Assembly: GCA_017411385.1 (NCBI GenBank)
Contig: JAFQQF010000016.1
Location: forward strand, 141,448 to 205,447
Origin: Ruminococcus sp.
Lineage (GTDB): Bacteria > Bacillota > Clostridia > Oscillospirales > Acutalibacteraceae
Direction of reading: 5' to 3'
DNA length: 64,000 nucleotides
The position numbers and the translations under genes were made by a program. Positions 12,101-57,291 of this stretch are shown here, piece after piece (position 1 is the first letter of the stretch; every line of letters begins with the position of its first letter). The notes under the pieces were generated by a model. It saw only the letters and a program-made list of their open reading frames with translations, did not search any database and had not been told where the DNA came from.

Positions 12101-13015
12101 TTACAGATGCTTTACAGTAGCTTCCCTTTTTTCGAGCAGGGCAACTCTTGCCGCTTCCGAACGAGCGACCATCATACCGGGTCCGAAGAAATAATGAAGG
12201 ACCAGGGACTGCACAAAACCCAGTACAGTAGAACAAATCCAGTAGAAACCTACAGCTGCGGGAACAGTATAAGCCAGATATGCTGAGAAGAGGGGTAGTA
12301 AGAAAATCATTGCATTCATACAACCCTGCTGCTGACCGCCGCCTGTGCCGTTTAATTTCTGCATAATAACTGTAGACAATACAGAGGTACCAAAACAAAG
12401 GAAAGGAATTAAGAGATACCAAGAAAAACCAAGTTTTGATGGTGTTTCCAGAAGATTAATTCCTGAGAAATTAAAGGATGCACAGAACTGTGAGATTTCG
12501 GGTATGGAAACCTTTGCACCTTCAAAACAAGCCTGAATACACTCAAAGCTGTTAAAATACTTCATAATATCAATCTGACCGCCATACATAGCAGAAGTGC
12601 TGATGTTAAGTCCCGGAATGGAAACAAGAACATTCTTTGCGTTTTCTACCATTACCTTGTCCAGATGAAGTGTATTTGTAAGGGGATAAGCAACGCTGTA
12701 AAAAACACCAAGCATAATAAACATAGGAATAATTGATGTCAGACAGCCTGCCGAAGGGTTAATACCCTCTTTTTCGTAGAGTTTCTGGGTTTCTTCGTTA
12801 AGCTTTTCTCTGTTATTACCGTATTTTTCGCGAAGCTCTGCTTGTTTTGCCTGCATTCTGGCATTACCCGCCATAGTCTTCTGCTGTTTGATAGAAGAAG
12901 GAAACAAAATGAGCTTTGCGATAATTGTAAAAATTAAGATAGCAAATGCGTAGTTATGAACTAACTGATAAGCAAACCAGAGAATATAACCGAATAAGCT
13001 TCCGATAAATTCCAT
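12101..13015 (-). CDS. yidC: Membrane protein insertase YidC (Oxa1/SpoIIIJ family)
   Basis: YidC inserts and folds membrane proteins with or without Sec. The start is the ATG at 13015 (MEFIGSLFGYILWFAYQLV), with gaaaggt 7 bases upstream; the frame extends further upstream only through yidD sequence. The first hydrophobic helix is followed by the conserved FAILIFTIIAKLILFPSSIKQQK, where the groove residue is Lys rather than the Arg of Bacillus SpoIIIJ. A Lys/Glu-rich cytoplasmic loop (ELREKYGNNREKLNEETQKLYEKEG) and three more membrane segments follow, ending with the GFYWICSTVLGFVQ signature. The 304-residue length is usual for Gram-positive forms. A second YidC domain occurs in the fusion at 48647. 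Confidence 0.93.
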   Translation of the reverse strand: MEFIGSLFGYILWFAYQLVHNYAFAILIFTIIAKLILFPSSIKQQKTMAGNARMQAKQAELREKYGNNREKLNEETQKLYEKEGINPSAGCLTSIIPMFIMLGVFYSVAYPLTNTLHLDKVMVENAKNVLVSIPGLNISTSAMYGGQIDIMKYFNSFECIQACFEGAKVSIPEISQFCASFNFSGINLLETPSKLGFSWYLLIPFLCFGTSVLSTVIMQKLNGTGGGQQQGCMNAMIFLLPLFSAYLAYTVPAAVGFYWICSTVLGFVQSLVLHYFFGPGMMVARSEAARVALLEKREATVKHL

Positions 13016-13031
13016 AAGCTTAACCTTTCTT

Positions 13032-13259
13032 TCATATCTTGTGTTTTTTCTGCGGGACGGGGTCATACCCGCCTTTGGAGAAGGGGTTACACCGCAGTAT
13101 TCTCCATAATGCAAGGGCCGAGCCCTTTATTACTCCGAAGCGCTCTATTGCTTCGTATCCGTACTGAGAACAAGTAGGATAATACTTGCACTTAGGAGGA
13201 CTAAGAGGAGAAATCTTTTTTTGATAAAAACGTATTATTTTGAGAAATATTTTTTTCAT
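13032..13259 (-). CDS. yidD: Membrane protein insertion efficiency factor YidD
   Basis: The ATG at 13259 is one base from the rnpA stop and is preceded by ggagg, so the 75-residue reading [21 protein letters not shown] is chosen over the longer frame from 13283. The signature [24 protein letters not shown] and [12 protein letters not shown] is characteristic of YidD, a small amphipathic protein that sits at the membrane and helps YidC-dependent insertion. It lies between rnpA and yidC, the standard position. Confidence 0.95.
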
Positions 13260-41963: not shown

Positions 41964-42001
41964 AGAGAAACCCCGAACAGGGCATAAGGCTTGTTCGGGG
42001 A
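41964..42001 (-). terminator. Terminator downstream of aspS
   Basis: Arms ccccgaaca and tgttcgggg, followed on the minus strand by TTTCTCTT. Confidence 0.7.
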
Positions 42002-42011
42002 TAATTTATAA

Positions 42012-43799: not shown

Positions 43800-43831
43800 A
43801 ATATATCTCTCCTTATAAAGGGTTATTTTGC

Positions 43832-45124
43832 TTAGTTCATTTCTGATGCAAGGTCTGCAGAAAGCAGGTTTTCGATGAAGATGTGTGCATCATTAATGGA
43901 AACCTCGGTCTGCTCGCCGTTTTCCATATTTTTAAGAATAGCTTTTCCGTTTTCAATCTCGTTATCACCGAGCACGAGAGAGAACTTTGCACCGATTTTG
44001 TTTGCGTACTTCATCTGAGCTTTGAGTCCCCTGCCCACAATGTCAAACTGAGCACCCAAGCCTGTTTCGCGAACCTCTCTTACAAGCTCAAAGGCTTTAA
44101 GCTGAGCTTTGTCGCCCAGAGCGGCAATGTAAAGCATATCGTACTCGGGCTTGGGGATTTCCACGCCTTCGGCTTCAAGCACCATCAGAAGTCTTTCAAG
44201 TCCGATGGCAAAGCCCAGAGAGGGCAGAGCGCTTCCGCCAAGCTCCTCAATGAGTCCGTTGTATCTTCCGCCGCCGCAAACTGTGGACTGAGCACCGATG
44301 CTGTCGGAGATAAACTCAAAAACAGTGTTGGTGTAGTAGTCAAGTCCGCGTACAATGGAAGGGTTAACTGTAAAGTCTATATCAGCGGCAGTAAGGTACT
44401 GCTGAACTTTCTTGAAGTGTTCGTCACAGCTTTCGCACAAAAAGTCAGTAATCTTGGGAGCATTTGCGGCAATTTCCTTGCACACGGGGCTCTTGCAGTC
44501 AAGAATACGCATGGGGTTTTTCTCGAGTCTTGACATACAGGTTGCACAGAGAGTGTCTGTAAACTGAGCAAAGTACTCTTTTAAAGCGGCGTGGTAATTC
44601 TTTCTGCATTCGGGACAGCCGATGGAGTTAATCTCAAGCCTTACATCAAAAAGCTGGAGCCTTTCGAAAATTGACTTTGCACAGCAGATAAGTTCAGCAT
44701 CAGAGATAGGGTCATTGGCACCATAAACTTCCATACCGAACTGGTGAAACTCACGCTGTCTGCCTGCCTGGGGCTTTTCGTAGCGGTAGCAGGTTGTGAA
44801 GTAGTGAGCTTTAATAGGCAGACCGTCGTTATAAAGGCCGTGCTCCAGAAGTGCTCTTGCGGCACCTGCTGTACCCTCGGGACGCAGAGTTAAAGACTCA
44901 CCACCCTTGGTTTCGAAGGTGTACATCTCCTTCTGAACAACGTCTGTGCCTTCGCCTACACCGCGCTGAAAAAGTTTTGTCTGCTCAAAAACAGGAGTAC
45001 GGATTTCAGAGAAGCCGTAAACTCTTGCTTCGTCAGAGAGGATTTTTTCAATAAACTGCCATTTATAACTGTCGCGGGGGAGAATATCCTCCGTTCCTTT
45101 GATTTTCTTAGCAATAAGAGCCAT
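43832..45124 (-). CDS. hisS: Histidyl-tRNA synthetase
   Basis: HisRS is a class II synthetase: motif 1 region (IEKILSDEARVYGFSEIRTPVFE), motif 2 (TCYRYEKPQAGRQREFHQFGMEVYG), the HisA motif GLDYYTNTVFEF and motif 3 (SLGFAIGLERLLM), then the C-terminal anticodon-binding domain. The 430-residue length is usual. Upstream is a predicted promoter and the REP-like element C. No T-box leader is visible. Confidence 0.97.
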   Translation of the reverse strand: MALIAKKIKGTEDILPRDSYKWQFIEKILSDEARVYGFSEIRTPVFEQTKLFQRGVGEGTDVVQKEMYTFETKGGESLTLRPEGTAGAARALLEHGLYNDGLPIKAHYFTTCYRYEKPQAGRQREFHQFGMEVYGANDPISDAELICCAKSIFERLQLFDVRLEINSIGCPECRKNYHAALKEYFAQFTDTLCATCMSRLEKNPMRILDCKSPVCKEIAANAPKITDFLCESCDEHFKKVQQYLTAADIDFTVNPSIVRGLDYYTNTVFEFISDSIGAQSTVCGGGRYNGLIEELGGSALPSLGFAIGLERLLMVLEAEGVEIPKPEYDMLYIAALGDKAQLKAFELVREVRETGLGAQFDIVGRGLKAQMKYANKIGAKFSLVLGDNEIENGKAILKNMENGEQTEVSINDAHIFIENLLSADLASEMN

Positions 45125-45175
45125 CTCATATCACCCTTTCCAAATAAGTGAAAACAAAATATTTATACATTATAT

Positions 45176-45204
45176 ATAGTATCACAATCGGCACGGATTT
45201 TCAA
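45176..45204 (-). promoter_or_regulatory. Predicted promoter of hisS-aspS
   Basis: Minus strand TTGAAA (45204-45199), 17-base spacer, TACTAT (45181-45176). Confidence 0.45.
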
Positions 45205-45222
45205 CAAAAAGAACAAAAAAAT

Positions 45223-45273
45223 AGCCCTCCTCTGAGAGGAGGGTGGATTTTCTGAAAGCAAAGACAGGAGGAG
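45223..45273. repeat. Composite REP-like element C upstream of hisS
   Basis: A perfect hairpin ccctcctct/agaggaggg, then a degenerate middle, then aggaggag. Plan as in elements A and B. Confidence 0.6.
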
Positions 45274-45289
45274 TTTTGCAGGATACTGT

Positions 45290-45832
45290 TTATTTCAAGA
45301 ACTTTTCTTTAAGCTTTGTTTTTCTTAAAAGCTCTGTAAGTAATGTGCCTGCCACAATACCTGCCAAGCCCTGCATACAGTTGCCAAGAACCGAGGCAAA
45401 GGCGCCTACACCGTACTGAAGAATTACCGCTTCAAACAAAAGGTAACCCGACACCATAACAATTTCCGCAAAAAGTGCTCCCAATGCGGTAAACAGAACA
45501 GAAAGCTTTAGCTTTTTGTCAGCAGTTTTGCTAAAAAGGTGAAGTACAAACCATACACAAACTGCCATAAGAGCTTTGATGATAAAGGTTGCAGGGGCAT
45601 ACTGCACGTAGCCTGCAAATATATCTGCCAAAGCAGAGCCGAGTCCTGCCGCAAGAGCACCATACACAGGGCCTAACATCCACGCAGACAGTATAACCAC
45701 TGCATCGCCTAAATTTAGGAAGCCCCCTGTGGGAGTGGGAATCTGAATAACCATTGTTGCCACACAGCAAAGAGATGCAAAAAGTGCCCCGAGGACGGTT
45801 TTTACAAGAGCGTTTGATTTACCTGCTTTCAT
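45290..45832 (-). CDS. ECF transporter S component
   Basis: The 180-residue protein has five or six hydrophobic helices and the early IPTPTGGFLNLGDAVVILSAWMLGPVYGALAAGLGSALAD segment typical of ECF S components, with the N-terminal ALFASL that would carry the A-x-x-x-A docking motif. S components bind a vitamin or cofactor precursor and share ATPase/T modules encoded elsewhere. No riboswitch is seen in the roughly 35-base leader, so the substrate cannot be named; similarity to the pyridoxine/HMP group is only an impression. Confidence 0.85.
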   Translation of the reverse strand: MKAGKSNALVKTVLGALFASLCCVATMVIQIPTPTGGFLNLGDAVVILSAWMLGPVYGALAAGLGSALADIFAGYVQYAPATFIIKALMAVCVWFVLHLFSKTADKKLKLSVLFTALGALFAEIVMVSGYLLFEAVILQYGVGAFASVLGNCMQGLAGIVAGTLLTELLRKTKLKEKFLK

Positions 45833-45866
45833 ATTGATACCTTCTTCACTTGGTGAGTTTTTTTGT

Positions 45867-45895
45867 ATTATACTACAGAGAATTCATTTTTTCAA
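45867..45895 (-). promoter_or_regulatory. Predicted promoter of the ECF S-component gene
   Basis: Minus strand TTGAAA (45895-45890), 17-base spacer, TATAAT (45872-45867). Confidence 0.65.
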
Positions 45896-46038
45896 TAAAT
45901 CAAGAGAAAATTTGCAATTTATACCAAGAGGTATGCAAGTTATTCCGATTTGTTGATTTTTGATTTTTGAAATGTTAATGTATACTCGTAAAAGGATTTC
46001 GAAGTCATATTTACATTTTTTCTGAAAGGAGAATATGA

Positions 46039-46485
46039 GTGAAGATAAGTTTATCAGTCAGTGAAGAAAGCTACAAGGATATAGAAAAGAAGCTTTTAGC
46101 ACTGGGATTTATTATTGATGATGACGCACCCTTTGTGCTTACAGAAAGAAACCGTTATGCAGAGTTTATCTGCGGAAAGGACGAGGATGTGTCCTGTCAT
46201 ATACCGGTAAGTGAGGTTGTGTATATCGAGAGTATGGGGCACGATATTTTTGTACACACAAAGGATAAAACCTACAGGTGTACAGATAGGTTGTGGCAGC
46301 TTGAAAAAGCCCTTGACCCTGCTTTCTTTCTGCGTATAAGCAATTCGGTGATAATTGCAAAGAAGCAGGTGAGGGGTATACGCTCAGCACTTTCTCAGAA
46401 ATTTATTCTGACACTTTCTGATGGAAACAGGGTAGATGTAACCCGCAGTTACTACTATATTTTTAAGAGTGAATTTGGTATTTAA
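46039..46485 (+). CDS. LytTR-domain DNA-binding protein
   Basis: The C-terminal 100 residues (IPVSEVVYIESMGHDIFVHTKDKTYRCTDRLWQLEKALDPAFFLRISNSVIIAKKQVRGI) are a LytTR domain. The N-terminal 45 residues are short and hold no receiver domain, so this is a stand-alone LytTR regulator. Such genes are usually followed by a membrane protein that holds the regulator at the membrane; the next gene, 12 bases on, encodes a two-helix membrane protein. Starts at GTG/ATG near 46039 after gaaaggag. Confidence 0.88.
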   Translation: MKISLSVSEESYKDIEKKLLALGFIIDDDAPFVLTERNRYAEFICGKDEDVSCHIPVSEVVYIESMGHDIFVHTKDKTYRCTDRLWQLEKALDPAFFLRISNSVIIAKKQVRGIRSALSQKFILTLSDGNRVDVTRSYYYIFKSEFGI

Positions 46486-46497
46486 GGGGGGTTTAGT

Positions 46498-47223
46498 ATG
46501 TTTATACCTTTGTTAGCGTTGATGATACTGACTTTTGCATTTTTTATTGGATTAATCCTGATTCTATACAATGTAATTTACAATTACAGAATAAAGAAGA
46601 GAATGGAGCGAGGCGAAACAGGCGGCAGACAATGGCCTACGCCCAGGAATGTACTCTTTGTTGTGCTGATTATTGCGGTGATTATTGCTCTGACTATTAC
46701 TGCTATAAGTGTACTGACGTCAAATCAGGAGGGTCCCCATGTTTCTTCAAGTCATTATGAGTCTGTAGTAAGCAAGGCTTGTTTTTCACAGTTTTACCGC
46801 AGTGAAGATCTACTGCAGTCAGATATGAGTGTTTACGCAGGGATATATCCTGACGGCAACCTTTCGGAATATGAAAAGAATGAATATACAGAGGGTGAAT
46901 TCAGGTGTGTTGTGTACACAAATAAGAGCTCTATTTCTCCTATGCCCGACTTCGTTGCTTTTGTAGAATATGCAGGTGACGGGGAGTTTGAAAAGGTTGT
47001 GGAATATACCCGTATGGAGCAGGGACATCCCCAAGTGGTAAATTCTGCAGGAAGTTGTGAGAATGTGTCCGAGTACTACTTTATGGCAGGAAATTTCTCT
47101 GATTATACTACAGGCTGTACTCAGTCAATTGGACTTTATAAGGATGCAAAAAAAGCACAGCACGATATAGAGAGTGACAGCCTTGAAAACGCAGACGTAT
47201 TCATTGATATCAGAATCAAATAA
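46498..47223 (+). CDS. Membrane protein partner of the LytTR regulator, unknown family
   Basis: The 241-residue product has two N-terminal membrane helices (about 2-26 and 52-72), with a short basic loop between them, and an extracellular C-terminal domain of about 165 residues with four Cys that could form disulfides. It is not DUF3021, the common partner of LytTR regulators. It probably shares a transcript with the LytTR gene. The RBS is aagggggg at 46486-46494. Confidence 0.65.
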   Translation: MFIPLLALMILTFAFFIGLILILYNVIYNYRIKKRMERGETGGRQWPTPRNVLFVVLIIAVIIALTITAISVLTSNQEGPHVSSSHYESVVSKACFSQFYRSEDLLQSDMSVYAGIYPDGNLSEYEKNEYTEGEFRCVVYTNKSSISPMPDFVAFVEYAGDGEFEKVVEYTRMEQGHPQVVNSAGSCENVSEYYFMAGNFSDYTTGCTQSIGLYKDAKKAQHDIESDSLENADVFIDIRIK

Positions 47224-47276
47224 TGTGACGGGTCTGGTTTCACTTTAACTGTATTTACAATTCTATAAAGCAAAAC

Positions 47277-47312
47277 AGAAAGCCTTCCTCGTTATGAGGA
47301 AGGCTTTCTGTA
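47277..47312. terminator. Bidirectional terminator
   Basis: Perfect 14-base arms agaaagccttcctc and gaggaaggctttct between convergent genes. Confidence 0.85.
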
Positions 47313-47322
47313 TATCAAAATA

Positions 47323-48213
47323 TTATACGTCGTAGGTTTTGTCCAGCTGTTTGAGCTCGTTGTAGGTGTCGATTTCGATGATATCGTCAAAGGTGCATTC
47401 TCTTACGTGAATCTTGTATTCATCCTTGAAATACTCAAGCGCAACCTGATCCCAGTATCTTTCTTTACCGCCGGGTGCCTGAAATACCTGCTTGATGTGG
47501 TTTACAAGGCGGGAGCCGTCTTGTTCATCCCAATAGGAGATGCCGAACATATGGTGGCAGTTTACTCCGCCGACAAGAAGCTTTTTGATAACACCGCTCT
47601 CAGAGGTTTCAAAGCACCAGTCGTCGGTCTTTTCAACAGGAACTGCAAGGTAGTTTGAGTGGTACTGATACTTGGTAATAAGCTTGGGGTTGTAGAGGTA
47701 AAGGTCTGCCTCAAGAACATAAGCATTCTTCAGAAGATAGCTTGCGCACACAGCGGATGAGATGTTGTTTGCTTCGTTGTACTGGGGATTTTCGATAAAC
47801 TTAATCATAGGATAATCGTACAGAAGCTGGTCAAACTGCTCTGCAAGGTAGCCTCTTACTATGTAAATCTCGGGAATGCCTGCGGCAACAACTGCATCAA
47901 GCAGAGTGGTGATAATTCTTTTGCCGTTAACGCGGATAAGGGGCTTGGGGGTATTGAGTGTAACGGGTACCATACGGGAGCCGAAGCCTGCCGCAATGAA
48001 AACAGCACGCTTTACTCTGTAAGGCTCAAGGGCATCAAGACCAGCAGGTGTAATAACACCGTCGGAAATGTATCCCATATTTGAGAGCTCTGCAATGCAC
48101 TTGTTAACTGTGCCCACGGACATTTTTGTTTCAAGAGCTATTTCACGCTGAGGATGTGCTTCGTGCTTGTCAGAAAGAAAAACAAGAACATCAAACTGCT
48201 TTTTTGTAATCAT
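47323..48213 (-). CDS. Winged-helix fused to LicC-like nucleotidyltransferase (CTP:phosphocholine cytidylyltransferase-like)
   Basis: Residues 1-62 form a winged-helix DNA-binding domain (KKQFDVLVFLSDKHEAHPQREIALETKMSVGTVNKCIAEL). Residues 68-290 are a sugar-nucleotidyltransferase fold: FIAAGFGSRMVPVTLNTPKPLIRVNGKR with the G-x-G-x-R and PKPL signature, YIVRGYLAEQFD, NPQYNEANNISS and LEADLYLY. The sequence resembles LicC, which makes CDP-choline for teichoic acid or lipooligosaccharide decoration. The substrate may be phosphocholine or another phospho-headgroup. It shares the operon with the small membrane protein and the YidC-glycerophosphotransferase fusion. Confidence 0.82.
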   Translation of the reverse strand: MITKKQFDVLVFLSDKHEAHPQREIALETKMSVGTVNKCIAELSNMGYISDGVITPAGLDALEPYRVKRAVFIAAGFGSRMVPVTLNTPKPLIRVNGKRIITTLLDAVVAAGIPEIYIVRGYLAEQFDQLLYDYPMIKFIENPQYNEANNISSAVCASYLLKNAYVLEADLYLYNPKLITKYQYHSNYLAVPVEKTDDWCFETSESGVIKKLLVGGVNCHHMFGISYWDEQDGSRLVNHIKQVFQAPGGKERYWDQVALEYFKDEYKIHVRECTFDDIIEIDTYNELKQLDKTYDV

Positions 48214-48293
48214 AATATCACCGCTTAATTTTAGTTAAAACTTTTGTATATTGAACAGACTTTAAGGGAAAAAACCTGTTTTTTAAGCATAAG

Positions 48294-48329
48294 AAACCCT
48301 CTGTCGGATTTCCTTACAGAGGGTTTTAT
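48294..48329 (-). terminator. Hairpin between the small membrane gene and the HTH-LicC gene
   Basis: Arms aaaccctctgt and acagagggttt. The minus-strand T run is weak, so it may only reduce readthrough. Confidence 0.55.
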
Positions 48330-48359
48330 TTGTTTGCTGAAAATGAACAAGGAGGCTTA

Positions 48360-48563
48360 TTAGTTCTCACCGAAAGAACCTGTTACATCCTCTTCAACTT
48401 CTTTTCTTTGGTTCTCGTCAATACCAAGCTTGTCGCTGATTTTCTTCTTTGCACGGCGGAAGTAAACCGCAACAACTGTGCCGATGGTAACAGCAACGCC
48501 TGCAACAGCGGCAAAAACCATTGACATACTTGCAGCATCAATATAACCTGTAAAAATCTGCAT
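48360..48563 (-). CDS. Small single-pass membrane protein
   Basis: The 67-residue product MQIFTGYIDAASMSMVFAAV has one membrane helix (about 13-36) followed by a positively charged then mixed tail (YFRRAKKKISDKLGIDENQR). The ATG follows ggaggaatt. No family is recognised. It sits between the YidC-fusion gene and the HTH-LicC gene, in the same direction, suggesting it is part of the same envelope complex. Confidence 0.65.
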   Translation of the reverse strand: MQIFTGYIDAASMSMVFAAVAGVAVTIGTVVAVYFRRAKKKISDKLGIDENQRKEVEEDVTGSFGEN

Positions 48564-48646
48564 TTTAATTCCTCCGATATGATTGTATCGTTTTGTCGTT
48601 TTTTACACAAACACATTATAGTGTAGTGCACATAAAAAGTCAATTA

Positions 48647-50770
48647 TTATTTAGAGGTTTCTTTATTTGCCTGCTGACGCTTTACAATCTGATTGTAGAT
48701 GTACTTTGCACCTGCAAGTCCGCTTTCGCCTACGTTGTAGATGTTGCGGTGCAGAGCCTCGTCAATCTGTGCTTCGTACTTCTTGGGATTTGTAAGAAGT
48801 TCAGCCACAACATCGGGTACGGTTGAAAGCTTGTCTGTATCAATGGAAATACCAACCTGATCCTTCCAACTGATTTCTGTGGGAACAAAGGGGATTTTCT
48901 CGTAGTTGGGATTTAAGACCTTCATAGGTGTATTGATGAACATAGAAGGCTTCTTGGTGGCATAGGAGAATTCATAGGCAATACCTGACCAGTCGGTAAT
49001 GAGCAGGTCGGACTCCCAGATTGTGCGGTTGGAGGAGAAGTCCATCTCGATAACAAAGTCGTCGCCGTCACAGCCCTCGTACTTTTTGATGATAGCATCC
49101 ATCTTTGCAGGAAAACGCTTGATGTACTCAGGGTGAGGTCTGAGGATTATCTTGTTGCCCTTGTGCAAAAGTCCCTCCATCAGCTCATCAAGGCAGTATT
49201 CGAGGATGTTATCCTCCTGCCATGAGGGAGCAAGGAGAATCTGCTTTTTGCTGTGCTCAACCTTCTCCATTTCTGCGTACATCTTGCACAGGTTGTCAAT
49301 TAGTCCGAAGCCTACAGGCACCAGAGTTTTTTCGGGGAGATTGTAGAGCTTTTCGGTAGCTCTTATTTCGTCTACCTGATGGGGACCAACGCAGAAGATG
49401 GTGTCGAAGTGGTCGTAGGCACCCTCACGCACGCACATGGTAGTACTTGTGGGGCCGTGGAAGGTGTATATATATTCAATGTCTTTTCTTACATAGGAAC
49501 GCTTGATGTAGTATTTTTCAAGGTCGGGGGTAGTCATCAGCACAATATCGGCATCCATCTTCATCATAAAGGTGATGATTTTCTTGGGGCCGATGTAGTA
49601 TGCCTTGATGCGGTTATTTTCCTCGGCTTTTTTGAAGATAGCATCCTTGGGGTCGTTGGTTACGTAGTGAATGGTGATGCTTGTGTTTTTGAGAAGCTCG
49701 TTTATGATGTTCTCAAAATACTTATAGAAACCGCTTTTCTCAGAGTAAATAACAAGATGCTTGTTAGCGATTGAGAAGAAACGCCTGTAGTCTGCACGCT
49801 CACGCTTGGCGTTTTCGTCACGCTTAAAAAGACCTTTTTTCTTGCCTGTGTCCAGTGCCTCAATAGCGGCAAGCTCTTCTCGGCTTGCTTCAAGCTCTTC
49901 GTAGTCAACGTACTTTTTGGGCGAGATAAGTGCATTAAGAAGCAGAAGCTGAAGCACGGCGATAATGTTACTTACTACCCAGTACAGGGCGATACCTGCA
50001 GGAACAAAGAAGCCAAGATATAGGGACAAACCCACGGAGAATGCCATTGTGCCCCACTTGTTGCCCTTGCCCTGCTCTGCCTGCAGAACGTTGATTTTGT
50101 TCTGAATGAAACATAAAAACCAAGAGGAGAAACCTGCAATAATGGGAGCAAGCACGTAAATCCAGTTGTTGCTTATAGTCTGTGAGGGAGTTGCGGAAAG
50201 GTCAAAGCCGAAGAAATCAAGGTCAAAGCTCTGTGCGTTTTTGATTGCAAGAGCACCCTCCTCGGTTTTGGCAATTTCTGTGAAAGCCTCGGGATAGTTC
50301 TTGATAGCATACATTGCGTTGATTTCCACAGAGTTTGACTCCAAATCAATCTCCATAACAGTTGCCGCTGTTTTGTTGATTTCTTCAATTACAGGGGCGG
50401 GAGTGTGGAAGATGTATGAAAAAGGATGATAGATAACAGCCACAACGCCTAAAAGCAGAACAATCTGGATTGCAAGTGGAATAAGGCTTGCAAAGGGGTT
50501 GTACTTCTGCTCTTTATACATACGGGATTGCTCTTCGCCGATACGCTCCGCGTCGCCGTAGTATTTTGCCTTGAGTCTGTTGATAGCCGGTTGGATTTTA
50601 ACAATTTTAATGGAGTTTTTGTGCACCCAGATGCCAACAGGCAAAATGATTATCTTTGTAATCAGGGTGAACAAAGCGATAGCCAAGCCGTAGTCGGCAA
50701 CAAGTGAGTGGGTAAACTGCATTATGTAGCCCAAAGGCAAGGCAAGCCAAGAGATTATCATATCATACAT
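48647..50770 (-). CDS. YidC/Oxa1 insertase domain fused to a CDP-glycerol glycerophosphotransferase
   Basis: Residues 1-295 are a YidC/Oxa1-type membrane domain: LAIALFTLITKIIILPVGIWVHKNSIKIVKIQPAINRLKAKYYGD (Lys at the hydrophilic groove), several helices, and the closing GIALYWVVSNIIAVLQ. Residues about 340-700 are a Glyphos_transf (TagB/TagF) domain: FHGPTSTTMC, LLAPSWQEDN, ILRPHPEYIKR and LLITDWSGIAYEFSYATKKP, which binds CDP-glycerol or a similar CDP-alditol. Start ATG 50770, ggagga 7 bases upstream; a consensus promoter is 60 bases further up. The frame is continuous across the join. The two functions would place polymer synthesis at a membrane insertion machine. 707 residues. Confidence 0.88.
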   Translation of the reverse strand: MYDMIISWLALPLGYIMQFTHSLVADYGLAIALFTLITKIIILPVGIWVHKNSIKIVKIQPAINRLKAKYYGDAERIGEEQSRMYKEQKYNPFASLIPLAIQIVLLLGVVAVIYHPFSYIFHTPAPVIEEINKTAATVMEIDLESNSVEINAMYAIKNYPEAFTEIAKTEEGALAIKNAQSFDLDFFGFDLSATPSQTISNNWIYVLAPIIAGFSSWFLCFIQNKINVLQAEQGKGNKWGTMAFSVGLSLYLGFFVPAGIALYWVVSNIIAVLQLLLLNALISPKKYVDYEELEASREELAAIEALDTGKKKGLFKRDENAKRERADYRRFFSIANKHLVIYSEKSGFYKYFENIINELLKNTSITIHYVTNDPKDAIFKKAEENNRIKAYYIGPKKIITFMMKMDADIVLMTTPDLEKYYIKRSYVRKDIEYIYTFHGPTSTTMCVREGAYDHFDTIFCVGPHQVDEIRATEKLYNLPEKTLVPVGFGLIDNLCKMYAEMEKVEHSKKQILLAPSWQEDNILEYCLDELMEGLLHKGNKIILRPHPEYIKRFPAKMDAIIKKYEGCDGDDFVIEMDFSSNRTIWESDLLITDWSGIAYEFSYATKKPSMFINTPMKVLNPNYEKIPFVPTEISWKDQVGISIDTDKLSTVPDVVAELLTNPKKYEAQIDEALHRNIYNVGESGLAGAKYIYNQIVKRQQANKETSK

Positions 50771-50831
50771 TGCTTATCCTCCGTTTTTTTGGATTGCAAA
50801 AGCCATACAATCCCATAATATATCAAATTAC

Positions 50832-50861
50832 ATTATACTCCCAAGCAAGAAGGTTTGTCAA
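50832..50861 (-). promoter_or_regulatory. Promoter of the YidC-fusion operon
   Basis: Minus strand TTGACA (50861-50856), 18-base spacer, TATAAT (50837-50832). Confidence 0.75.
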
Positions 50862-50969
50862 TTGTAGTCCAACACAGTAAAACCCTTGTAAGAAACACAG
50901 GAAGATATGCATAATGACAAGAAAGAAAAGGGTTTTGTTGCAATGTGAAAATAAAATTTCAAAAAGATA

Positions 50970-50998
50970 TTGAAAAAGCAAAAACTTTGTGGTAATAT
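50970..50998 (+). promoter_or_regulatory. Promoter of tRNA-Thr
   Basis: TTGAAA (50970-50975), 17-base spacer, TAATAT (50993-50998), 36 bases before the tRNA. Confidence 0.6.
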
Positions 50999-51034
50999 AG
51001 TCGGGTAACCTTGAAGGGTACAATGTGAATAATC

Positions 51035-51110
<76 letters not shown>

Positions 51111-51141
51111 AAAAAGACAGACTTTTTAGTCTGTCTTTTTT
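51111..51141 (+). terminator. Terminator after tRNA-Thr
   Basis: Arms aaaaagacagact and agtctgtcttttt, ending in TTTTT; the run of T follows immediately. Confidence 0.85.
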
Positions 51142-51366
51142 ATTCAAGCCGAAGGTTTGATATGTAATCGCCGTAAGGCGTATGCAATCAGTTCGCATAG
51201 CGAACTGTATGTCATCAAGGGGTAAGATTTGTGTGTTTTCTTTCGGCTTGATTACATACATTTCCTAACGTAAATGATTTCATACCGCAGTATTCTGCGG
51301 ATTTCATACACGCTTCGCGTGATTGCTTTATATCGAAACTTCTGATATAATATATTTGGTGGTTAT
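51142..51366. repeat. Array of nested inverted repeats leading into the four-helix-bundle gene
   Basis: At least six short hairpins (gccgaaggt near 51148, cgcc/ggcg 51169-51180, cagttcgc/gcgaactg 51189-51207, ccgcag/ctgcgg 51285-51300, cacgc/gcgtg 51309-51321, tatatc/gatata 51330-51350) are separated by a repeated spacer. In the first half the spacer reads TATGnnATC (51161, 51181, 51208); in the second half it reads GATTnCATAC (51250, 51276, 51300), its reverse complement. Long-range arms tcaagccgaa (51144-51153) and ttcggcttga (51242-51251) close the whole. It has no gene. Confidence 0.75.
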
Positions 51367-51720
51367 ATGGGCAAGAATCTATTGTTAGAGTATTCCGAAC
51401 ATTTAGCAGTACAAATCGAACTACTTTGCAGAAAGATTAACGGTAATTCCAATATTTTATTTCAAATCAGAAAATCTTCATCAAGTGTTTTTGCCAATAT
51501 CAGCGAGGCTCAATACCCCCAAAGCCTTCCCGATATGCTTTCAAAATTCAAAATTGCCCGTAAAGAGTGTATGGAAACAGAAAGCTGGCTTAAGCTTATG
51601 TGGGCTACAAATATTATTGAAGAAGCAGATTATAAGGAATATCGCAACTTATGCGGAAGAATCAGACGATTACTTACAGTTTCCTGCATAACGATAGAAA
51701 ATAAAATTAACAATACATAA
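51367..51720 (+). CDS. Four-helix bundle protein (23S rRNA intervening-sequence protein family, S23)
   Basis: The 117-residue protein MGKNLLLEYSEHLAVQIELLC has the amphipathic helical pattern of the S23/TIGR02436 four-helix-bundle family, with QIRKSSSSVFANISEAQYPQS and RKECMETESWLKLMW. First found encoded in 23S rRNA intervening sequences, most family members stand alone with unknown function. The ATG is at 51367 with a weak ggtgg. The long hairpin array directly upstream is part of the same unit. Confidence 0.85.
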   Translation: MGKNLLLEYSEHLAVQIELLCRKINGNSNILFQIRKSSSSVFANISEAQYPQSLPDMLSKFKIARKECMETESWLKLMWATNIIEEADYKEYRNLCGRIRRLLTVSCITIENKINNT

Positions 51721-51726
51721 ACCAAC

Positions 51727-51775
51727 AGACCTTATCGTTACACATTTTTGAGTGTGCGGATAAGGTCTGTTTTTG
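51727..51775 (+). terminator. Terminator after the four-helix-bundle gene
   Basis: Arms agaccttatc and gataaggtct with an internal stem acac/gtgt, followed by TTTTTG. Confidence 0.8.
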
Positions 51776-51806
51776 TTTATCTACATTATTCTGTTTCTTA
51801 TGTGTA

Positions 51807-53789
51807 TTACATATAGTAAACGTAAGTGTTGATGCAGTCTGTGCCTGCGTCAAGGCCTGCAAGCCACTTTTGGATTGCGGTGGCATCCTTGATGTTTACA
51901 TCGTCTTCTGTGATTACATTTGCGGCAAGCTCTGCACTTACGGAAATTGCCTCAAGTCCTGCAAGATATTTCTGGATAGTGGTTGCGTCCTTGATAGTAA
52001 CTGCCTTGTCTGAGTTTGCGTCGCCCATCAGGATTCCTTCGTCAACCTCCCACTGAGCGTAGAGGTTGGTGTGTGCATCGGGCACAATTGAGGTTTCTGT
52101 TATCTTTGTACCGCCTGACTTCTGAGTATACCAACCCTTGAAGATGTAGCCTGCTTTTTCGGGTGTGGGAAGAGAGCCGTAAATCTTGCCTGCGGTGTAT
52201 GTCTTAGTTTCGAAGATGTCAAGATAATCGGGCATCAGAGGCGCATCTGCTCCTGTGTCAACAAGCACAAAATCTGTGAAGTAGAAGGTGCCTGCCTTGT
52301 CAATGTAAGGATGCATATGTGCTCCGTCATAGGGCTGTTTCGACATATCAATTGTATAGTCCTTCCACTGAGTGGAAAGGGTTACAGCCTGAGTGTCGCT
52401 GGTGTAGCCCCAGCGGAAGTACATCTTGGCACCCTCAACAGAGGATTTTGCTCTGAATGTGAGAGTGAAACCGCGGTTATCGCCTGCGTTGTAGTTGTAG
52501 CACTCACCCTTGTTTGTGTTGGTCTTGAAAAGCAAATCTGCCCCCGACTTGCCTGCGGTTATACCTTTAACTACAAGCGTGTCGCCGTTTTGAACGCTGA
52601 GCTGATATACATTTAAATCCCTGCTCTGATAGAAATCATCACAGTTTGCAGGGTCAATACCTGCCATATAGTTGGTGCCTGAGTGATTTGTGTAGAATTC
52701 GTGGGTAACAGAGGTGGGCTTCCACACAGGGTGGAGGGTAAAGGTGTCACCTGCAATACCGCCGTTTTTGGTCCATGAGTCATTCATTGTGAATTTAAGA
52801 CCTTCATTATATACTGAGAGAGTGTAACCTTTGTCGCGGATTTCCTGAAGTGTATACCAACCCTGTCCTGCGGCGTGCCATTTGCCGTCAGAGTGGCGGT
52901 ATGCAGTGTAGCCGTTACAGGTGTGTCCGTCAAAAGTGAAAGTACACTCAGGGAAGGTAACCTCATTGCCCATTGTTGCTTTGAAGGATGCCATTGTACC
53001 ATTTCCGCCGTTTGCATTGAAACCAAAGGTGCAGTCTGTGTTTACCGGGTTTGTGGGGTAGCAGATTTCTTGAAGCTTATTGCCACAGTAGGAAATCCAT
53101 GATTCCAGATTTACATAACAGCACATATAGTTTTTTTCGTTTGTTTTTAGTGATGCGGAGTCGATCATAGGTGCGTTTGCGTGATTGTTGTAATGGGTTG
53201 CGGAGTTAACCCACCAGTATCCGCCTGAGGAGGTTTTGTCCTTCTTGATTTCCATTACAGTGAAGCCTGAAGGCTGAAGAGTTGTGGTTGAGCCGTTGTA
53301 TGCAATTACAACAGAGGCATGGGTACCTGTGTATACAATAACAGGCTTACCCTGTGCAAGCTGATTGTAAATCTTCTGATAAGAACTTGCGTTTTTGCCG
53401 ATGCCGTCTACTACACGTGTCATTTTCACAGGATAGTATTTTGTCAGGTTGTCGTAGTTGTTTGCAACGCCGTTGGCGGAATCTTTGAACATCTTTGTGA
53501 TGGCGTCTGCGCGGTCAAGGTAGTTGTAGTCTGTGCCCGGCTTTCGGTAGTTTGTGGTAATGCCGCCGTAGGTGTAGGTGCCAAGGCAGTAACCCTGTAC
53601 TGTTGCCATACTGGACCAGTAGCAGAGGCCGTTGGTATCGTAGTGTGGCTGATACACACGGCTGATTTGCAGAGCAGGGATTTTAGGGTAGCTTGCAGCA
53701 GAAGCTTCAAAAAGACCTAAGCCTGTGAATACAGAGAGTGTAAGCATAAGGGTAAGTAAAAGAGAGAGAAGGGATTTGAACTTTTTCAT
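51807..53789 (-). CDS. Secreted C39-like cysteine peptidase with InlB-type repeat and C-terminal dockerin
   Basis: Signal peptide about 1-31 (cleavage after ASA). The N-terminal domain (about 33-230) is papain/C39-like: Cys56 in NGLCYWSSMATVQGYC, His157 in GTHASVVIAYNG and a later Asn195, a credible triad. A middle part (about 370-520) has the beta-sandwich look of a carbohydrate-binding module. An InlB/Flg_new repeat (FKGWYTQKSGG) follows. The last 75 residues are a type I dockerin with two calcium-loop repeats (GDANSDKAVTIKDATTIQKYLAGL; EDDVNIKDATAIQKWLAGL). Dockerins plug proteins onto cohesins of a cellulosome-like scaffold; no cohesin gene is in the window. 660 residues. Confidence 0.88.
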   Translation of the reverse strand: MKKFKSLLSLLLTLMLTLSVFTGLGLFEASAASYPKIPALQISRVYQPHYDTNGLCYWSSMATVQGYCLGTYTYGGITTNYRKPGTDYNYLDRADAITKMFKDSANGVANNYDNLTKYYPVKMTRVVDGIGKNASSYQKIYNQLAQGKPVIVYTGTHASVVIAYNGSTTTLQPSGFTVMEIKKDKTSSGGYWWVNSATHYNNHANAPMIDSASLKTNEKNYMCCYVNLESWISYCGNKLQEICYPTNPVNTDCTFGFNANGGNGTMASFKATMGNEVTFPECTFTFDGHTCNGYTAYRHSDGKWHAAGQGWYTLQEIRDKGYTLSVYNEGLKFTMNDSWTKNGGIAGDTFTLHPVWKPTSVTHEFYTNHSGTNYMAGIDPANCDDFYQSRDLNVYQLSVQNGDTLVVKGITAGKSGADLLFKTNTNKGECYNYNAGDNRGFTLTFRAKSSVEGAKMYFRWGYTSDTQAVTLSTQWKDYTIDMSKQPYDGAHMHPYIDKAGTFYFTDFVLVDTGADAPLMPDYLDIFETKTYTAGKIYGSLPTPEKAGYIFKGWYTQKSGGTKITETSIVPDAHTNLYAQWEVDEGILMGDANSDKAVTIKDATTIQKYLAGLEAISVSAELAANVITEDDVNIKDATAIQKWLAGLDAGTDCINTYVYYM

Positions 53790-53824
53790 AATAAAACCTC
53801 CATTTTTATATATGACATCAGCTT

Positions 53825-54583
53825 TTAGCCGAACAGCTTTTCTATATCGGGAAGCTCGGTGTTTGCAGGGGCTGTCACAAGGACAACGTTCATAAGCTTG
53901 CCCATTGCACGGATGTAGTAGATGCTCTGAGTTGAGGTGTTGCCTGCCTCAGTGGTGAATATTGCCTTCTGATACATCTTGCCACTTAGGTCTACTGAGG
54001 ATTTCTGCACCAGAGTTGTGCCTTTTGTGTTTTCAAAAGCACCCTCCAGCATCTCCATATATTCATCGGTTGTCATGGCTACGGAAGCGGAAACGTGCAT
54101 ATTTTCGTATGCAACAGAAATGTTGATGCCATCCTTTGAGTCGGTTGCCCACATATCGTACACAGCAGGTACTCGGTCTGCAGTAAAGGGAAAGATATCG
54201 GGAGCAAGCTCTTGTGTGCTCACACCGATTTTGAGTGCAAGCTCATCATCAGAAAGGTAGGTAAAGCTATCGGGCTTTGTAAATTTAAGTCCCGTGAAGT
54301 CGCTTGTGTATATGTTGCCGTTTATGGTGCCTTTGCTCAATTGCAGTTCTTCGTTTTGCAAAGGTGCGTTGGTTTCATCAGCTTGCGGAGGGTTTTCCGA
54401 AGAAGCTTCAGAGGATTCTGCGGTGCTTTCAGATGCTTCGGGTGCAGTTGTTTCCTCTTGGTGTATGTGGTCGTGGAAGTGAATGTGAGCATCTGTGGGG
54501 GAAGTTTGTCCTGTCTGAGGCTTGCAAGCGGTAAAGGATACTATCACCAATCCCGCAAGCAGAGTTGCAAAAAATTTTTTCAT
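53825..54583 (-). CDS. Lipoprotein with His-rich linker, unknown function
   Basis: Start ATG 54583 (MKKFFATLLAGLVIVSFTAC); an ATG two codons upstream is too close to the ggag site. Cys20 in the SFTAC lipobox is the lipidation site. A His-rich stretch (DAHIHFHDHIH) follows, then an acidic/Ser-rich linker and a soluble domain (about 90-252). The domain is paralogous to that of the next gene upstream: both contain NxYTS-x-x-TGLKFTKPDS and YL-D-ELA. Function unknown; the histidines could bind metal. Confidence 0.75.
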   Translation of the reverse strand: MKKFFATLLAGLVIVSFTACKPQTGQTSPTDAHIHFHDHIHQEETTAPEASESTAESSEASSENPPQADETNAPLQNEELQLSKGTINGNIYTSDFTGLKFTKPDSFTYLSDDELALKIGVSTQELAPDIFPFTADRVPAVYDMWATDSKDGINISVAYENMHVSASVAMTTDEYMEMLEGAFENTKGTTLVQKSSVDLSGKMYQKAIFTTEAGNTSTQSIYYIRAMGKLMNVVLVTAPANTELPDIEKLFG

Positions 54584-54597
54584 AAGCATTCTCCTCG

Positions 54598-55203
54598 TTA
54601 TGAAAACATCTTTTCGATGTTGGGGGTAGTAATGTCTGAGGTGTATGCAACGGTGATAACGTTCATATATTTGTCAATCCCGCGCAGGTAGTATTCTGTC
54701 ACGGTTACCAGTCCGTCAATTTCTACGGTGAAAACAGCGTGGCGGTATGCCTGAGAGCTGAGATAAACCGTTTCGTTTTCTTCTGTGACGGTAGCGCCCA
54801 TTGTCTGAAGATAGTTTGCCATTGTGTCAAGGTACTCGTCTTCGGAGATTACACCGCCCATAGTGACCTCGAGGTTTTCGTAGCCTATAGCCATATTGAG
54901 CCCTGTTTCATCGTTCATAAGCATCATATCAAGGAGAGTGGGGTATTCGTCAAGGGCAGACATAAAATTATTGTTGCTCAGAACTTCTTCGTTGATACTA
55001 AGTGCCTGAGCAAGCTCGGCGTCGGTAAGATATCGCCAGCTGTCGGGCTTGGTGAATTTAAGTCCTGTGGTTTTGCTTGTGTAGGTGTTGCCTTTGATTT
55101 TGCCTCTTTGTATTTCTGCTTCCTTTGCAGTGGGGTTGTTGTTGCACCCTGCAAAAGAAAACATAAGTAAAACCGCAAAAAATACGGAAAATATTTTCTT
55201 CAT
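54598..55203 (-). CDS. Lipoprotein, paralogue of the preceding one, unknown function
   Basis: The 201-residue protein has a lipobox (FSFAGC, Cys20) and a soluble domain (about 35-200) that repeats the pattern GNTYTSKTTGLKFTKPDSWRYLTDAELAQAL of its neighbour at 53825, without the His-rich linker. The stop is 15 bases from the next start, so the two are in one transcription unit and probably arose by tandem duplication. Not a recognised family. Confidence 0.75.
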   Translation of the reverse strand: MKKIFSVFFAVLLMFSFAGCNNNPTAKEAEIQRGKIKGNTYTSKTTGLKFTKPDSWRYLTDAELAQALSINEEVLSNNNFMSALDEYPTLLDMMLMNDETGLNMAIGYENLEVTMGGVISEDEYLDTMANYLQTMGATVTEENETVYLSSQAYRHAVFTVEIDGLVTVTEYYLRGIDKYMNVITVAYTSDITTPNIEKMFS

Positions 55204-55362
55204 ATTAGCCTCCGATTTTTATATATAAAAAGTATAGCATCTGCAGGTTACGGCTGTCAAATACAAACCGCTTGGGCAGATGTAAATATATAGCAATTTA
55301 CTGCACACAGTTGCATATTTTACAAACTTGGATTTTACTTTGATTTATTGTAGAAAAAACTA

Positions 55363-55391
55363 TTGAAAAATGAAGAAAAAAGCCGTATAAT
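55363..55391 (+). promoter_or_regulatory. Promoter of the scaffold/GGGtGRT operon
   Basis: TTGAAA (55363-55368), 17-base spacer, TATAAT (55386-55391), about 50 bases before the ATG. Confidence 0.75.
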
Positions 55392-55442
55392 ATCCCTGTA
55401 TGAGTTATCTCAACTTTAATTTCAGAAAGGAGTAGCAACAAA

Positions 55443-56135
55443 ATGAACTATTCACATGAAGTACAGAAAATGTGCGTTGTTGCAAAAGGACCCAAGCACG
55501 GTCCCGCACCTATCCCCGAAGAGGGCAAATGGGTAAAATCCTATCAGATTTCCGACATCTCCGGTCTTTCTCACGGTGTAGGCTGGTGTGCACCTCAGCA
55601 GGGCACATGTAAGCTCACACTCAACGTAAAGAACGGTATTGTTGAGGAGGCTCTGGTTGAAACTCTGGGTTGTTCCGGTATGACTCACTCTGCAGCTATG
55701 GCAGCTGAGATTCTCCCCGGCAAGACCCTTTTAGAGTGTCTTAACACAGACCTTGTTTGCGATGCTATCAACACTGCTATGAGAAACATCTTTGAGCAGC
55801 TTGCTTACGGCAGAAGCCAGACAGCATTCTCTGAAGACGGTCTTCCCATCGGTGCAGGTCTTGAGGACCTTGGTAAGGGCCTCCGTTCACAGGTTGGTAC
55901 AATGTTCTCCACAAAGGACAAGGGTGTTCGTTACATGGAGATGGCTGAGGGCTATGTACTCAAGACAGCTCTTGATGAGAACAACGAGGTTATCGGCTAT
56001 CAGTTCGTAAAGCTCGGCAAGATGATGGAGGATATCCGTCACGGCATGAGCCCCGACGAGGCATATAAGAACAACATCGGTCAGTACGGTCGCTTCGATG
56101 GCGCAGCTAAGTACATTGACCCTCGTGAAGAATAA
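55443..56135 (+). CDS. NifU/IscU-like iron-sulfur cluster scaffold protein
   Basis: The 230-residue protein has an IscU/NifU-N-like core: GVGWCAPQQGTCKLTLNVKNGIVEEALVETLGCSGMTHSAAMAAEILPGKTLLECLNTDLVCDAI. Its Cys residues (GWC, LGC, LEC, VC) are in scaffold-like positions, though the last is not the usual IscU cysteine. Codon use is strongly biased to C-ending codons (atc, ttc, gac), unlike most neighbours, which suggests high expression. It is followed by the GGGtGRT gene 17 bases on; this pair recurs in Clostridia. Its exact cluster client is unknown. Confidence 0.8.
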   Translation: MNYSHEVQKMCVVAKGPKHGPAPIPEEGKWVKSYQISDISGLSHGVGWCAPQQGTCKLTLNVKNGIVEEALVETLGCSGMTHSAAMAAEILPGKTLLECLNTDLVCDAINTAMRNIFEQLAYGRSQTAFSEDGLPIGAGLEDLGKGLRSQVGTMFSTKDKGVRYMEMAEGYVLKTALDENNEVIGYQFVKLGKMMEDIRHGMSPDEAYKNNIGQYGRFDGAAKYIDPREE

Positions 56136-56152
56136 TAAGGGAGGTTAACGAC

Positions 56153-57154
56153 ATGGCTGTAACATTTGAAAGTATGGACAGAAGAATGCCCAAAATCAAT
56201 GCTTGTCTTGCACAGTACGGCATCAAGGACCTTGAAGAGGCAAGAGCTATCTGTCTTGAGAAGGGCTTCGACCCCGATGAAATCGTAAAGGGCGTTCAGC
56301 CCATCGCATTTGAGAACGCTTCTTGGGCATACACACTCGGTTGCGCAGTAGCAATCAAGAAGGGATGCACAACAGCTGCTGATGCTGCTGAGGCTATCGG
56401 TGTAGGTCTTGAGGCTTTCTGTATTCCCGGCTCTGTTGCTGAGCAGAGAAACGTTGGTCTTGGCCACGGTAACCTGGGCGCAATGCTCCTTCGTGACGAA
56501 ACAAAGTGCTTTGCATTCCTTGCAGGTCACGAGTCCTTTGCAGCAGCTGAGGGTGCTATCGGTATCGCAAGAAACGCTAACAAGGCACGTAAAGAGCCCC
56601 TTCGCGTTATCCTCAACGGTCTTGGCAAGGACGCTGCTTACATCATCTCCAGAATCAACGGCTTCACATACGTTGAAACAGAGTTTGATTACTTCACAGG
56701 TGAGCTGAAGATTGTAGAAGAGAAGGCATTCTCCGACGGCGAGAGAGCAGCAGTTCGTTGCTACGGCGCTGATGACGTTCGTGAGGGCGTTGCAATCATG
56801 CAGTTCGAGAACGTTGGTGTTTCCATCACAGGTAACTCCACTAACCCCACAAGATTCCAGCACCTTGTTGCAGGTACTTACAAGAAGTGGGCTATCGAGA
56901 ACGGCGTTCAGTACTTCTCCGTTGCATCAGGCGGCGGCACAGGTCGTACACTTCACCCCGATAACATGGGTGCAGGTCCTGCTTCCTATGGTCTTACAGA
57001 CTCCATGGGCCGTATGCACGGCGACGCTCAGTTTGCAGGTTCTTCTTCCGTTCCTGCTCACGTTGAGATGATGGGCCTTATCGGTATGGGTAACAACCCC
57101 ATGGTTGGTGCAACAGTTGCTTGCGCAGTTGCAGTTTACAATGCAATGAAATAA
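56153..57154 (+). CDS. GGGtGRT protein, unknown function
   Basis: The 333-residue protein contains the name-giving GGGTGRTLHPDNMGAGP (about 275-291), with a continuing ASYGLTDSMGRMHGDAQFAG segment. The Gly-rich, highly conserved body (VGLGHGNLGAMLLRDETKCFAFLAGHE, AAEGAIGIARNANKAR) suggests a ligand- or cofactor-binding enzyme, but no catalytic class is recognised. Codon bias is as strong as in the scaffold gene before it, and the two are cotranscribed. The pair is a good candidate for a conserved unsolved system. Confidence 0.8.
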   Translation: MAVTFESMDRRMPKINACLAQYGIKDLEEARAICLEKGFDPDEIVKGVQPIAFENASWAYTLGCAVAIKKGCTTAADAAEAIGVGLEAFCIPGSVAEQRNVGLGHGNLGAMLLRDETKCFAFLAGHESFAAAEGAIGIARNANKARKEPLRVILNGLGKDAAYIISRINGFTYVETEFDYFTGELKIVEEKAFSDGERAAVRCYGADDVREGVAIMQFENVGVSITGNSTNPTRFQHLVAGTYKKWAIENGVQYFSVASGGGTGRTLHPDNMGAGPASYGLTDSMGRMHGDAQFAGSSSVPAHVEMMGLIGMGNNPMVGATVACAVAVYNAMK

Positions 57155-57176
57155 TTATTACCGCAAGGTAAATAAT

Positions 57177-57210
57177 TACACCCCGATGTTTTTAGCATCG
57201 GGGTGTTTGT
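57177..57210 (+). terminator. Terminator after the GGGtGRT gene
   Basis: Arms acaccccgatg and catcggggtgt followed by TTTG. Confidence 0.85.
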
Positions 57211-57228
57211 TTGTAAAGAAGATAACAT

Positions 57229-57291
57229 AAAAGGCTTCCGCTTTTGTACTGTCCGCACAATTTAGGGCAGTACATTTTTCGGAAGCCTTTT
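57229..57291 (-). terminator. Long hairpin terminator of the XRE gene
   Basis: Outer arms aaaaggcttccg and cggaagcctttt, with an inner stem gtactgtcc/ggcagtac; the minus-strand stop codon of the XRE gene touches it. Confidence 0.7.

Follow-up and report, generated by a model that had tools for sequence, protein, structure and literature searches.

A YidC-fold domain fused to a TagF/TarL-like phosphotransferase, with a predicted role in head-group addition at the bacterial surface

A 64,000-nucleotide stretch of DNA from the gut bacterium Ruminococcus sp. (contig JAFQQF010000016.1 of assembly GCA_017411385.1, forward-strand positions 141,448 to 205,447; hereafter the window) codes for a protein in which a YidC/Oxa1 membrane domain is joined to a Glyphos_transf domain of the TagF/TarL type. 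This fusion recurs across three phyla, and its YidC half exchanges partners with a short single-transmembrane (single-TM) module, here termed YIDP, that elsewhere precedes a sulfatase-family membrane enzyme. We give an even chance to the reading that the fusion provides the cytosolic and membrane parts of a membrane-spanning machine that adds phospho- or phosphono-head-groups to a surface polymer or lipid. The observations beneath this reading are the domain content, an apparent operon, conserved motifs, the recurrent adjacency of the sulfatase-family enzyme and the way in which YidC and YIDP trade places between the two enzymes. The fusion and its parts lie in the window as follows:

48647..50770, minus strand: YidC-Glyphos fusion, 707 amino acids (aa), from the open reading frame, Pfam, NCBIfam and a 31-row alignment
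49934..50692, minus strand: YidC/Oxa1 domain, residues 27-279 (PF02096, E 6e-31, 108 bits against a cut-off of 35)
50654-50656, minus strand: basic groove residue K39, aligned with E. coli R366
48938..49768, minus strand: Glyphos_transf domain, residues 335-611 (PF04464, E 2e-11, 44 bits against a cut-off of 22.1)

The gene starts with an ATG preceded by GGAGG, and the 707-codon frame reported in the initial annotation is exact, its strand having been left out there. Both domains named in that annotation score above their cut-offs, and the domain search that it offered as a possible refutation returned the PF02096 match in the N-terminal half. The NCBIfam model for the YidC C-terminal region, TIGR03592, likewise gives 101.3 bits against a cut-off of 84.3; because the fusion scores above this curated threshold, automatic annotation could label it an insertase and mask its enzyme half. 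The same join is found as an open frame matching both profiles in 45 distinct genes (46 rows, since L094 and L108 are one gene) and in six more, making 51, and it is present in the named strain Bittarella massiliensis GGCC_0305. This recurrence, established between assemblies rather than from reads, rules out the assembly or sequencing error that had been raised as the other way to refute the join. Hence, the fusion is real, with chance and misassembly excluded.

A scan of genome contigs gave 33 fusion loci (L037-L069), with best-segment identities of 37-94% that run near full length in most; the contig of L045 ends within the fusion and that of L050 is truncated, so that absent neighbors at these two mean little. 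The hosts, with phyla as labelled, belong to the Bacillota, the Actinomycetota (Coriobacteriales, Eggerthellaceae) and, in the case of one metagenome-assembled genome, to Treponema. Counting the window's own genome each time, the fusion occurs in 4/59 close genomes (the G028 gene is divided between two contigs), in 17/394 genomes of the order, all readable as a single open frame with matches to both domains, and in 2/398 genomes of the phylum, where a free-standing Glyphos protein of the same subfamily was also seen in G798. The fusions of G214, G317 and G176 have a short TM2-TM3 loop, as do those of L065 and L066. Both halves are under purifying selection: in comparisons with L037-L040, nonsynonymous divergence (dN) is 0.04-0.17 for the YidC part and 0.04-0.08 for the Glyphos part, against a synonymous divergence (dS) of 0.8-1.4. 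Across 31 aligned fusions H438, the RPHP motif (544-547), D593-W-S and many positions of the YidC domain are invariant.

The YidC halves are a lineage of their own. When 78 YidC domains are placed in a quick tree, the 46 fusion rows form one clade (Shimodaira-Hasegawa-like approximate likelihood-ratio support 100), apart from 25 unfused rows that we take to be the ordinary YidCs of their genomes. The window's genome has three PF02096 and two PF04464 matches in all, and the separate ordinary yidC that the initial annotation had pointed out is indeed present, although with an end at 13114 instead of 13015; it serves here for comparison only:

12101..13114, minus strand: ordinary yidC, between rnpA and jag, with mnmE, mnmG and dnaA near

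Like other members of the YidC/Oxa1/Alb3 family, the window fusion exceeds the PF02096 and TIGR03592 thresholds, carries a lysine at the position of E. coli R366 and keeps the YW motif; unlike them, the fusions lack a free C-terminal tail and have residues fixed in their own clade. The positive groove residue, described in the available part of PMC8920935 as strictly conserved and as keeping the groove hydrated, is K or R in 46/46 fusion rows; among the 25 unfused rows it is K in 20, R in 4 and N in 1. Q223, N224, V228, Q230 and N279 are fixed in 17/17 fusions thinned to below 60% identity, and the same residues occur in 2, 0, 0, 3 and 3, respectively, of 21 unfused YidCs. After thinning, mean identity is 0.44 among the fusions and 0.32 among the unfused YidCs, and closer kinship therefore explains part of this fixation. 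From their location after the third and after the last hydrophobic stretch, these residues would be placed on the cytosolic side of the membrane.

One alternative is that the YidC half is merely a five-helix anchor by which a TagF-like transferase is bound to the inner leaflet, with neither transport nor coupling across the membrane. TagF-like enzymes act at the membrane surface, and the C-terminus of the YidC core is cytosolic, so that an enzyme fused to it would meet CDP-linked donors. Moreover, the free-standing Glyphos protein of G798 belongs to this subfamily, and no YidC is encoded in the surrounding 14.5 kb. Against simple anchoring, a single helix would suffice for the purpose, whereas the whole fold has been kept, including the cytosolic hairpin and the K/R groove; it also leaves unexplained why a YidC domain is partnered with a sulfatase-family enzyme in the swapped arrangement described below. 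We regard this explanation as unlikely.

The Glyphos half belongs to the same Pfam family as TagF, TarF, TarL and TagB (PF04464). A search of the PDB with the Glyphos profile gave TarL (8va1) as the sole sequence match (E 6e-6, over the RPHP/DWS part), while the corresponding single-sequence search gave no match at E 10. The RPHP and TDWS stretches align with the matching motifs of 8va1; the half contains H438, RPHP at 544-547 and TDWSG at 592-596, and the RPHPEY and TDWSG motifs named in the initial annotation are both there. The histidine of the HG motif, the RPHP residues and those of the (T/S)D-aromatic-S motif are presumably the ones that are catalytic in TagF. What sets the fusion apart from the TagF-like enzymes is its YidC fold and a neighborhood that points to CMP-linked amino-alcohol or phosphonate donors in place of CDP-glycerol.

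The nearest of these neighbors is a cytidylyltransferase with a helix-turn-helix (HTH) domain, which shares an apparent operon with the fusion and the window's own YIDP protein:

47323..48213, minus strand: HTH-LicC cytidylyltransferase, 296 aa, a winged helix and a nucleoside triphosphate (NTP) transferase domain (PF13412, PF12804, PF00483)
48360..48563, minus strand: 67-aa single-TM YIDP protein (match to a profile of relatives, E 8e-26)

The best PDB match of the window LicC is Streptococcus pneumoniae LicC (1jyk, E 2e-30 over residues 55-292), with Treponema denticola PntC (6pd1) matching at E 4e-12; in line with the CDP-activated head group first proposed, the match to 1jyk points to a CMP-activated head group as a likely donor. 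At the two pocket positions paired between LicC and PntC in the available part of PMC6697681 (D105/Glu104 and D192/Glu196), the window enzyme has E168 and D255, respectively. Since one position is PntC-like and the other LicC-like, the substrate is not readable from this sequence.

Other fusion loci have further kinds of head-group genes. LicC-type domains are encoded in 13/33 fusion loci and a CTP_transf_like enzyme in two more, so that 15/33 have a nucleotidylyltransferase; the suggestion that the fusion always stands next to a LicC-type gene is accordingly not borne out. In L066 the HTH-LicC is fused to a choline/ethanolamine kinase, and in L047, L051, L052 and L068 the LicC domain is fused to a pyridoxal-phosphate domain, that of L047 being nearest to the threonine-phosphate-decarboxylase-like 6oux. 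Genes of the phosphonate pathway occur in L046 (PepM and Ppd), L054 (PepM, Ppd and a PntC-like gene) and L056 (Ppd, AEPT and LicC), and L048 and L049 have an aminotransferase beside a CTP_transf_like-oxidoreductase protein. The fullest set that we saw is in G317, where genes for the sulfatase-family enzyme, the fusion, Ppd, a PntC-like enzyme, PepM and YIDP follow one another on one strand. The free-standing Glyphos gene of G798 comes directly after PepM, Ppd, PntC-like and AEPT genes. To judge from its gene content, this row is a phosphonate-tailoring locus with a PF04464 enzyme beside the activation genes. The row spans L106:3694-11216 and comprises a PepM-NTP transferase, Ppd, PntC-like, AEPT, the PF04464 enzyme and a PF00884 enzyme. 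Separately, L046:9037-11085 (minus strand) encodes a 683-aa protein in which three domains are fused, NTP transferase, CTP_transf_like and PEP mutase, a type that makes up 2.8% of Ppm proteins according to the available part of PMC6697681.

These neighbors bear on the default reading of the Glyphos half as an ordinary CDP-glycerol (or CDP-ribitol) teichoic-acid polymerase with an incidental YidC half. The PF04464 match and TarL as the only PDB match of the profile speak for it. However, the nucleotidylyltransferases near the fusion are LicC-like or lie beside PepM, Ppd, aminotransferase or kinase genes (13/33 loci), and the CTP_transf_like domain is seen only fused to an oxidoreductase (L048, L049) or within PepM proteins (L046, L054). 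Because of these neighbor genes we have demoted polymerization from the default to a rival, and an improbable one. The initial annotation had likewise favored a polymerase, and the neighbors fit tailoring, i.e. head-group addition, better. As a whole, its picture holds for the domains, the extra yidC, the operon and the activated head group as a likely donor, and gives way on the constant LicC neighbor, the role of the 67-aa protein and the polymerase.

The 67-aa protein had been cast as a supplier of the head group. Instead, it is a stand-alone TM module that elsewhere forms the N-terminus of a sulfatase-family or another Glyphos protein. It has one TM stretch followed by basic residues and reads Y-I-D-A-A-S-M at a Y-I/L-D-P-type motif; the profile that detects it was built from its cluster-2 relatives without it, and against the L037 copy it shows a dN of 0.06 and a dS of 1.0. 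The module is the N-terminus of a sulfatase-family enzyme in 12/33 fusion loci, as also in G819, and a stand-alone copy in 16/33; the profile search did not find it in the remaining five (L045, L046, L050, L054 and L057).

A sulfatase-family membrane enzyme, recognized by profile, is encoded in 16/33 fusion loci, adjoining the fusion in 15 of these 16 and lying 4.3 kb off in L056; the two genes also adjoin in five of six further genomes. Five such proteins from outside the window's genome (those of L046, L059, L056, L107 of G819 and L106 of G798, the last being more distant) were searched against Pfam, and four of them match PF00884. The window's genome has two tandem PF00884 copies on the contig that carries the fusion, about 70 kb away from it (profile E about 1e-151); a single-sequence PDB search with one of them gave no match. 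The D, T, H and DH positions are kept in 23-24 of 24 sulfatase-family sequences, and the enzymes look active. By resemblance of fold, we presume that they are akin to LtaS; many differ from the known LtaS-type PF00884 phosphotransferases in carrying an N-terminal YIDP module or YidC domain. In L047, L054 and L062 another membrane protein resembles the sulfatase superfamily by eye only, that of L047 having no Pfam match.

A second locus in the window's own genome, on contig C56, has these modules in the opposite combination: a PF04464 gene shares a single base with the start of a frame of 929 aa. This frame (L006:5780-8569) is a YidC-PF00884 fusion, with PF02096 at 34-221, PF00884 at 638-847 and an asparagine in the groove. 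The pair of a Glyphos gene followed by a YidC-PF00884 gene occurs in 6/59 close genomes (the window's own, G006, G015, G020, G026 and G033), adjacent in all six, and constitutes a second kind of YidC fusion. A search with the hidden Markov model of the YIDP module missed the Glyphos protein of C56 at an E of 0.01, and profile-profile comparison was needed to relate them: hhalign aligned the module with the N-terminal part of the Glyphos proteins of the C56 type at a probability of 94.9, compared with 99.1 for the module's own columns in the sulfatase family, 77.9 for the next overlapping segment, and at most 1.1 for reversed sequence and for segments of YidC and of the sulfatase family that lie beyond the module. 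The modules thus swap between [YidC-Glyphos]+[YIDP-PF00884] and [YIDP-Glyphos]+[YidC-PF00884]. Since YidC and YIDP exchange partners between the same two enzymes, the usual logic of gene fusions predicts that the four modules cooperate, and the swap argues for a single membrane-spanning complex, which we infer from domain architecture. Neither the sulfatase-family partner nor the swapped locus figured in the initial annotation. The quick tree hinted at two separate recruitments of YidC, a scenario that was not upheld, the joint clade being not rejected and fitting slightly better (p 0.77).

A further possibility is that the YidC half remains a dedicated insertase for the 67-aa YIDP protein, the sulfatase-family enzyme or both, thereby coupling assembly to synthesis. 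Short single-TM proteins whose helix is followed by basic residues are typical YidC substrates; the YIDP protein has this very form, it is encoded as a stand-alone copy at nearly half of the fusion loci, and the groove, the hairpin and the YW residues are all retained. Conversely, an enzyme domain takes the place of the C-terminal tail, the genome also has an ordinary yidC, and the swapped locus has YIDP within the Glyphos protein and an asparagine in the YidC groove. We consider a dedicated insertase quite unlikely.

In the favored head-group machine, LicC-type enzymes in the cytosol would make the CMP-activated head group. The TagF/TarL-like domain, which the YidC fold would tether to the inner face of the membrane, would transfer it to a lipid-linked acceptor. 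The groove of the YidC fold and the YIDP module could then couple the two faces of the membrane, the lipid-linked product being passed through or presented, and outside, the LtaS-type sulfatase-family enzyme would move the phospho-head-group from the lipid onto the surface polymer. We infer that the parts associate physically, in what sequence the reactions run, what kind of acceptor is used and that the product moves along the groove. Lipid scrambling in vitro is reported for E. coli YidC and further Oxa1-family insertases (PMC10491306, available part), and a lipid passage step is therefore possible. A stronger form of this proposal is that the YidC fold has been converted from an insertase into a membrane passage, with the groove and the YIDP helix carrying the lipid-linked head group to the LtaS-type enzyme, that the same kind of domain could be fused to either enzyme, and that the PF04464 half is the missing CMP-2-aminoethylphosphonate (CMP-AEP) or CDP-amino-alcohol transferase of phosphonate tailoring; this we put forward as a tentative idea that is rather improbable in its entirety.

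Several observations weigh against the head-group machine. Although the frequency of PepM speaks for it, with PepM above cut-off in 8/19 other fusion genomes vs 19/295 genomes of the order (Fisher p 4e-5), this comparison ignores kinship and its two samples share at least six genomes. In the window's genome PepM (PF13714) was not found, and AEP is not supported as a product there; nor was the LicA-type choline kinase PF01633 found in this 93% complete genome (PF01636 was not searched), and with the mixed LicC pocket choline is no more than a candidate. Phosphocholine, phosphoethanolamine or a related head group may be used in this genome, and three LicD proteins encoded in it could use the LicC product instead. 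On the outer side, no sulfatase-family enzyme was found in the surrounding DNA of 14/33 loci, the window's own type included, and the L056 protein that matches the sulfatase profile has no Pfam match. The groove position is Asn in 7/7 YidC-PF00884 rows (two rows are the same gene), and so the charged groove is apparently dispensable in those proteins. The intended positive control of the hhalign comparison, the first sulfatase columns, gave 0.0, one long row having shifted the module. Finally, the tests on the two YidC lineages are compatible with one or two recruitments.

Set against known systems, the neighborhoods resemble the Lic and Pnt pathways in that LicC-type or PepM, Ppd and AEPT genes adjoin the fusion or its free-standing Glyphos relative, and differ in having a PF04464 enzyme beside the activation genes. 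The transferase of the Lic pathway is LicD. For such neighborhoods the available part of PMC6697681 mentions phosphotransferases of the LicD-like kind or glycosyltransferases, and it leaves open the step after CMP-AEP, for which the present family is a candidate transferase. In logic only, a likeness can be drawn to three-component (flippase-coupled) polymer glycosylation and to Dlt. In those systems activation takes place inside, passage occurs on a lipid or carrier, and the final transfer happens outside. The domain types are known; their combination and the module swap are new as far as the literature was searched (titles and the openings of abstracts, with subscription journals mostly outside), where no description of either was found. 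To our knowledge, whether cells make deliberate use of lipid scrambling by insertases is still an open question, and a YidC fold built into surface-polymer enzymes could provide a direct test case.

In the window the fusion, the YIDP gene and the HTH-LicC gene follow each other in this order on the minus strand, with these putative signals around them:

50832..50861, minus strand: sigma-70-type promoter-like TTGACA-18-TATAAT, 12/12, 5' of the fusion (promoter scan)
48615..48643, minus strand: second promoter-like site, 11/12, 5' of the 67-aa gene (promoter scan)
47275..47311, minus strand: terminator-like hairpin of 16 pairs with a T-rich tail, directly 3' of licC (terminator scan)

The scan totals are near expectation (13 promoter-like sites vs 8.6 expected and 4 terminators vs 3.8), and weight is therefore given only to the best-matching and well-placed sites. 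The order of the genes, the promoter-like sites and the hairpin suggest that the three form one apparent operon, in keeping with what was first proposed.

Upstream of the fusion, a divergently transcribed CapA-like gene is present in 9/9 loci of the set L037-L045 and also in L008, whose member matches PF09587. No member of this CapA-like cluster was seen in the window at 41001-59000, and a PF05635 gene (51367-51720) sits in that region. Beyond it, on the minus strand, 51807-53789 encodes a 660-aa protein whose start resembles a signal sequence; it contains a Flg_new repeat, and its C-terminus looks by eye like a duplicated dockerin. A tandem pair of related proteins that resemble lipoproteins and match no Pfam family is encoded at 53825-54589 and 54598-55203 (minus strand), a cluster that occurs in 5/36 compared regions, the window counted.

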